Source: Chloroflexota bacterium (GTDB taxonomy: Bacteria; Chloroflexota; UBA6077; SHYK01). From it: DNA of 44,959 bases. Within the stretch, counting starts at the first letter, position 1, and each line of letters starts with the position of its first letter. The translations under genes were made by a program, and so were the position numbers. The stretch is taken from NCBI GenBank assembly GCA_035652535.1, contig DASRDP010000109.1, positions 1 through 44,959 of the forward strand, in the 5' to 3' direction. Under the pieces are notes generated by a model. That model did no database searches. It saw nothing but the letters and a program-made list of their open reading frames with translations, and had not been told where the DNA came from. Shown here in pieces: positions 20,436 through 20,512 of this stretch.

Positions 20436-20512
20436 TGGTGGGCGAGACAGGACTCGAACCTGTGACCTCACGGATGTGGGCCGTGCGCTCTAACCAGCTG
20501 AGCTACTCACCC
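20436..20512 (-). tRNA. tRNA-Val (anticodon CAC) with encoded CCA
   Basis: A full cloverleaf on the minus strand: acceptor GGGTGAG/CTCGCCC (one G-U pair), D stem GCTC/GAGC, anticodon stem CACGG/CCGTG, T stem ACAGG/CCTGT with TTCGAGT loop, discriminator A73 and genomic CCA at 20438-20436. The seven-base anticodon loop is CCCACAT, placing CAC at 34-36, so it reads GUG valine codons. Base 33 is C, not the near-universal U. A73, A35 and C36 agree with valine identity, and tRNA-His is ruled out by A73 and the absence of a GTG anticodon. Confidence 0.9.

Follow-up and report, generated by a model that had tools for sequence, protein, structure and literature searches.

The 44,959 nt stretch of Chloroflexota DNA that was analyzed here (the window) carries a gene that most likely encodes a functional elongator tRNA-Val reading GUG with C, instead of U, at position 33 of the anticodon turn; we put the probability of this reading at roughly 0.8. 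U33 is generally treated as close to universal. It was held fixed, for instance, in a tRNA engineering study (excerpt of PMC8891652), and the exceptions named in the cited papers, as far as the excerpts go, are initiators and accessory or mistranslating tRNAs. Thus, tRNAs without U33 are already known, but a conserved, recurrent, Val-centered bacterial form was not found among the literature matches listed, nor did these matches include any report of C33 in bacterial Val tRNAs. If the reading is correct, a single-copy core tRNA with C33, conserved across genera, would imply that normal decoding in nature can do without U33. The bearing of the case comes from a genome in which both expected GUG readers have C33 and GUG is common. 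The features of the gene are the following:

20436–20512, minus strand: tRNA-Val(CAC) gene with encoded CCA (ARAGORN; Rfam RF00005, 65.6 bits; sequence)
20474–20480, minus strand: anticodon loop, positions 32–38, CCCACAT (sequence; ARAGORN parse)
20479, minus strand: position 33, C for the usual U (sequence; same base in the related genomes G001, G003 and G004)
20476–20478, minus strand: anticodon CAC, which reads GUG (sequence; ARAGORN)
20436–20439, minus strand: A73 and the CCA end, the latter at 20438–20436 (sequence)

ARAGORN called a single tRNA in the window, Val(CAC), at complement 20436–20512. The Rfam model RF00005 matched at 20512–20439 over model positions 1–71 of 71, with a covariance score well above the gathering cut-off of 29 bits. 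The preliminary description had reported, without stating the strand, the loop CCCACAT with C33, intact stems and a CCA end, all of which were confirmed: the loop reads C32 C33 C34 A35 C36 A37 U38, the 21 stem pairs are standard without exception, with a single G-U pair (4–69) among them, and the CCA is encoded. The identity set of tRNA-Val comprises A73 together with A35 and C36. All three bases are present, A73 being shared by all 27 Val(CAC) sequences compared, and the NAC anticodon sits in a Val-type body, as judged from ARAGORN and from the identity to family members. Bacterial initiator tRNAs are marked by a C1-A72 mismatch and a CAU anticodon; the window gene has a G1-C72 pair and CAC. 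Nor does it combine A33 with A34 as tRNA-ProX does, since it has C33 and C34. Of the features of a canonical elongator tRNA, it lacks U33.

Two ORFs of the same orientation, 19075–20058 and 20559–21815, flank the gene; by eye we take them to be pirin-like and Rieske-oxygenase-like, respectively. Scans of the region 20200–20750, both of them weak tests, yielded no sigma-70-type promoter and one terminator-like match on the minus strand (20224–20209; 0.3 expected). A phage origin was considered and rejected: none of the 207 phage records that matched exceeded 90% identity (167 at 80–90%, 40 at 60–80%), the best-ranked being a Sinorhizobium phage tRNA-Val with 84.8%, and the window holds no other tRNA.

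The contig that makes up the window belongs to a draft genome (G000; 4.45 Mb, 98.3% complete, 4.56% contaminated), which was compared with four other genomes of its family (G001–G004), each of the five from a different genus. Named relatives were fetched with the neighboring protein encoded at 20559–21815. The Val(CAC) loop is CCCACAT in G000, G001, G003 and G004 and CTCACAT in G002, and it is TTCACAT in the remaining 22 of the 27 Val(CAC) genes, which were drawn from the order, class and phylum. Outside this set, G011 has ATCACAC (U33) as well as a CCCACAT gene in a dense tRNA array. The window gene is 86–95% identical to Val(CAC) of the other four family genomes, the nearest sequence in the search for relatives, at 95%, being that of a family member. 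No window ORF overlapping 15–26 kb matched the corresponding loci of seven relatives (up to 3 kb each), and the orthology of the family Val(CAC) genes is therefore judged from the tRNA sequences themselves. Given CCCACAT in four genera, CTCACAT in the fifth and TTCACAT in most relatives, U32 was probably replaced by C first, followed by the replacement of U33, which was then retained.

In the 27 sequences, 20 of the 21 stem pairs are never broken (the T-stem pair 50–64 is broken in five), and compensating changes occurred in the acceptor stem (3–70, 6–67, 7–66), the anticodon stem (27–43, 28–42) and the T stem (49–65, 51–63). Together with the frequent use of GUG described below, these compensating changes indicate a working tRNA. 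The loss of a near-invariant base could be taken as a sign of decay, and the preliminary description had entertained a degenerating tRNA. Intact stems, CCA end and Val identity bases, the compensating changes, a C33 shared by four genera and the failure to find a second Val(CAC) in the draft all make a pseudogene very improbable. As far as sequence can tell, the tRNA is intact and conserved, and it is probably a conserved variant of an apparent core tRNA, not a defective gene; we infer that it decodes with C33.

The same comparison bears on the rival explanation that C33 stems from an error of sequencing or assembly, or from a contaminating contig, for which the contamination of the draft might speak. 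The same base in three other family assemblies, and a nearest relative that belongs to the family, leave this explanation with next to no weight. A sequencing error, named in the preliminary description as one way in which its observation might fail, is thus very unlikely; the other way, relatives with T33, applies to the more distant relatives and to G002, but not to G001, G003 and G004.

To what extent GUG depends on this gene can be seen from the tRNA complement of G000. Rfam located 47 tRNA places and ARAGORN 44 distinct genes; one Leu gene is apparently present twice (L041, L042), and two Ser genes in L039 that ARAGORN missed were read by eye as U33. Among the resulting 46 distinct genes, C33 occurs in two, both of them Val. 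The second is Val(UAC) on contig C115, with the loop CCTACAC, whereas Val(GAC) has TTGACAT (U33), as it does in all five family genomes. The Val(UAC) loop is TTTACAC in G001, G002 and G003, and the gene was not recovered in G004. In G000 it is the middle gene of a Leu(GAG)-Val(UAC)-Phe(GAA) cluster that is also found in G001 and G002, with TTTACAC there. This distribution indicates that Val(UAC) of G000 gained C32 and C33 by a change separate from that in Val(CAC).

The search suggested in the preliminary description for a second Val(CAC), or for a UAC tRNA covering GUG, accordingly gave two different answers: no second Val(CAC) was found in G000, and the UAC tRNA is present but has C33 as well. 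No U33 form of either Val(CAC) or Val(UAC) was matched in G000, although 384 of the 400 Chloroflexota genomes sampled have at least one. By all that was found, the window gene is the only GUG-specific tRNA-Val of G000, and since both Val(CAC) and Val(UAC) have C33, GUG appears to be read there by C33 tRNAs alone. Asn(GUU), Ile(GAU) and Ala(UGC) tRNAs were not found in the G000 set; because this set is incomplete and the draft contaminated, a further Val(CAC) may sit in a gap. The genome also encodes tRNA-Trp(CCA) in two different versions, located on separate contigs (L002, L011), one of which may stem from contamination of the draft.

In the 30 predicted ORFs of the window, GUG accounts for 340 of the 917 Val codons (37%). 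Hence, tRNA-Val(CAC) is not a minor-codon tRNA, contrary to one of the options raised in the preliminary description. Nothing was observed that would point to the regulatory role that this description also raised. More generally, the gene might encode a specialized tRNA (for minor codons, regulation or mistranslation) on top of a housekeeping set: natural A33 or G33 tRNAs include mistranslating ones (excerpt of PMC11415595), and C33 tRNAs also occur in dense tRNA arrays (L163, L203, L205). Yet no Val(CAC) other than this gene was found in G000, the codon it serves is common, its Val body and anticodon agree, and it is the sole tRNA gene in the window, with no array around it. A specialized role is therefore unlikely, and a housekeeping elongator remains the preferred reading.

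Comparison with known systems places the gene close to ordinary tRNAs. It shares with ordinary bacterial tRNA-Val(CAC) all four arms (acceptor, D, anticodon and T), A73, A37, U38 and the anticodon CAC, and U33 forms of the class are up to 92% identical to it, differing in the loop by U32 U33 versus C32 C33. A functional parallel is the Streptomyces tRNA-Asp(AUC), likewise a natural bacterial elongator with C33, which is expressed and decodes GAU efficiently (excerpt of PMC9262613). That tRNA, however, is accessory (homologs in 32 of 4649 streptomycete genomes) and has a purine at position 32 and an unusual anticodon (same excerpt), whereas the window tRNA looks core and single-copy. Eukaryotic initiator tRNA-Met, a named exception with C33 for U33 (PMC9023262), differs in that the window gene is an elongator. 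The Candida tRNA-Ser(CAG) is a natural elongator without U33, but it has G33 and an ambiguous amino acid identity; G33 was linked to lower leucylation and gave medium decoding efficiency in a test tRNA (PMC1991585). Bacterial tRNA-ProX also lacks U33, having A33, but it combines dual identity with A34 (excerpt of PMC11415595), unlike the window gene with its C34 and Val body.

To assess how widespread C33 is, genome samples from four phyla were searched with a pattern that requires GCTCAG, GAGC, a 5-base variable loop and GTTCRA. All counts are lower bounds; the pattern missed, for example, Val(GAC) genes with C33 in G005 and G011 that were found by another route. Apart from Chloroflexota, the phyla sampled were those to which L089 (Nocardia jiangxiensis), L092 (Alicyclobacillus fastidiosus) and L124 (uncultured Rhodospirillales) belong; the taxonomy was consulted for L089 and L092, and L124 we take to represent the Pseudomonadota sample. 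Across all isotypes, the pattern was matched in at least 29 of 400 Chloroflexota genomes (one by chance), at least 75 of 246 Actinomycetota, at least 4 of 249 Bacillota and at least 2 of 249 Pseudomonadota. Val is the most common C33 isotype in both Chloroflexota and Actinomycetota.

Among the Chloroflexota, one of the 32 matches was dropped because ARAGORN found no tRNA there (G352, L209), and the others were tallied by hand with ARAGORN calls. Val accounts for 17 of these 31, with CAC, UAC and GAC all represented; the other 14 comprise seven tRNAs with a CAU anticodon, Arg in three genomes, and one each of Gly, Trp, Ala and a Phe-like tRNA. The Val(GAC) loop TCGACAT occurs in all three genomes of genus g6 in family f2, and a CAU-anticodon tRNA with C33 in seven of the eight sampled genomes of family f29, where its loop CCCATAC is found alongside a second CAU tRNA with CTCATAA (L196–L201, L221). 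C33 in Val(CAC) itself was observed in 6 of the 400 Chloroflexota genomes, in one of them within a dense tRNA array, and had no match in the Actinomycetota, Bacillota and Pseudomonadota samples (246, 249 and 249 genomes). A search of the class with a Val-only pattern matched 7 of 29 genomes, one of them by chance (G019, with no tRNA at L161).

In the Actinomycetota, a script recount assigned 54 of the 79 matches to Val, in 54 genomes (52 GAC, 2 UAC), and, by anticodon, the rest to Thr (13), Ala (8), Met (2), Arg (1) and His (1). Loci were available for 30 of the 79, all of which ARAGORN called as tRNAs with C33, while the other 49 are pattern matches only. The loops at these loci include TCGACAA and TCGACAC in Val(GAC), TCGGTAA in Thr(GGU) and TCGGCAG in Ala(GGC) (L246–L275). 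The Bacillota matches were two Val(GAC) and two CAU tRNAs, and those in Pseudomonadota were called as Gly(GCC), in a tRNA cluster, and as Leu(GAG), the latter with a poor acceptor stem.

The overall distribution indicates that C33 arose several times in Val tRNAs. Counted as family-by-isoacceptor events, Val makes up 9 of 16, compared with a baseline of 28 Val among 142 U33 tRNAs (a hand count in 11 of 29 genomes); the resulting p = 0.0013 is indicative only, given that the events were defined by us and that some lie in mobile-looking arrays. The rarity of C33 asserted in the preliminary description thus holds for tRNAs at large, but has to be qualified for Val tRNAs.

How such a tRNA might decode can be rationalized from the structure of the turn. 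In the U-turn, N3-H of U33 contacts phosphate 36, and with C33 this contact would be lost or weakened. The loop could nevertheless still form a usable turn, because the contact from the 2'-OH of residue 33 to N7 of purine 35 would not depend on base 33. The U-turn has been described as resting partly on this contact (excerpt of PMC5372741). A35 is present in every Val tRNA, so that the purine is kept; some other C33 tRNAs (Arg UCU, Gly UCC, Trp CCA) have a pyrimidine there and fall outside this argument. As the first pair of Val codons is a strong G-C pair, the loss could be bearable and C33 may even help to even out decoding strength, which would account for Val being the isotype most often affected. 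The 32–38 pair tunes codon-anticodon strength. Decoding strength is tuned by the surrounding loop bases (excerpt of PMC11231383), and a 32–38 change lets tRNA-Ala read the Val codon GUC (excerpt of PMC11415595), making misreading near Val codons a real hazard that is affected by loop changes. The Val bias of C33 fits such tuning, without proving it, and C33 may instead be neutral. The good performance of the Streptomyces tRNA-Asp(AUC) speaks against a strong cost of C33. C33 can nevertheless come at a cost: U33C in yeast tRNA-Gln(CUG) increased pseudohyphal growth, which the authors linked to poor translation of CAG (excerpt of PMC3664417).

Alternatively, a cytidine deaminase might convert C33 of the transcript to U (or pseudouridine), giving a normal U-turn in the mature tRNA. 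Given an editor, recurrent C33 in one isotype would be cheap, and bacterial C-to-U-to-pseudouridine editing is known at the neighboring position 32, in Vibrio cholerae tRNA-Tyr with TrcP (excerpt of PMC9553926). Small-RNA sequencing of the Streptomyces C33 tRNA-Asp, however, detected no other modification, according to the excerpt of PMC9262613. Moreover, the contexts of C33 differ, base 32 being mostly C (CC) in Chloroflexota and mostly U (UC) in Actinomycetota. Members of PF14437, presumably the TadA-type deaminase family, are not clearly enriched either (two in G000, none in G001, one each in G003 and G004, versus one in the U33 relative G002). Editing thus seems improbable, and decoding with C33 itself is favored. 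A tentative extension, which we consider possible but doubtful, is that position 33 of bacterial Val tRNAs serves as a decoding control that can evolve: selection would have driven repeated replacements of U33 by C in all three isoacceptors, with C33 tuning the strong codon-anticodon pair, so that whole Val codons (GUG here, perhaps GUC and GUU in many Actinomycetota) would be read without the U-turn uridine. In any case, such tRNAs offer natural material for asking what the U-turn contact is worth, and annotation should not dismiss a bacterial Val tRNA gene as a pseudogene on account of C33 alone.

Dense tRNA arrays with a phage or mobile look are present in three Chloroflexota drafts, with C33 in Glu, Ala and two Val tRNAs in L163 (G011), in Tyr, Val and Pro in L203 (G295), and in Ala, Arg and Pro in L205 (G327). 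In G037, a second Phe-like gene with the anticodon AAA and the loop CCAAAAG (L216) lies near the normal Phe(GAA) gene and has an identical anticodon stem; it is perhaps a decaying copy.
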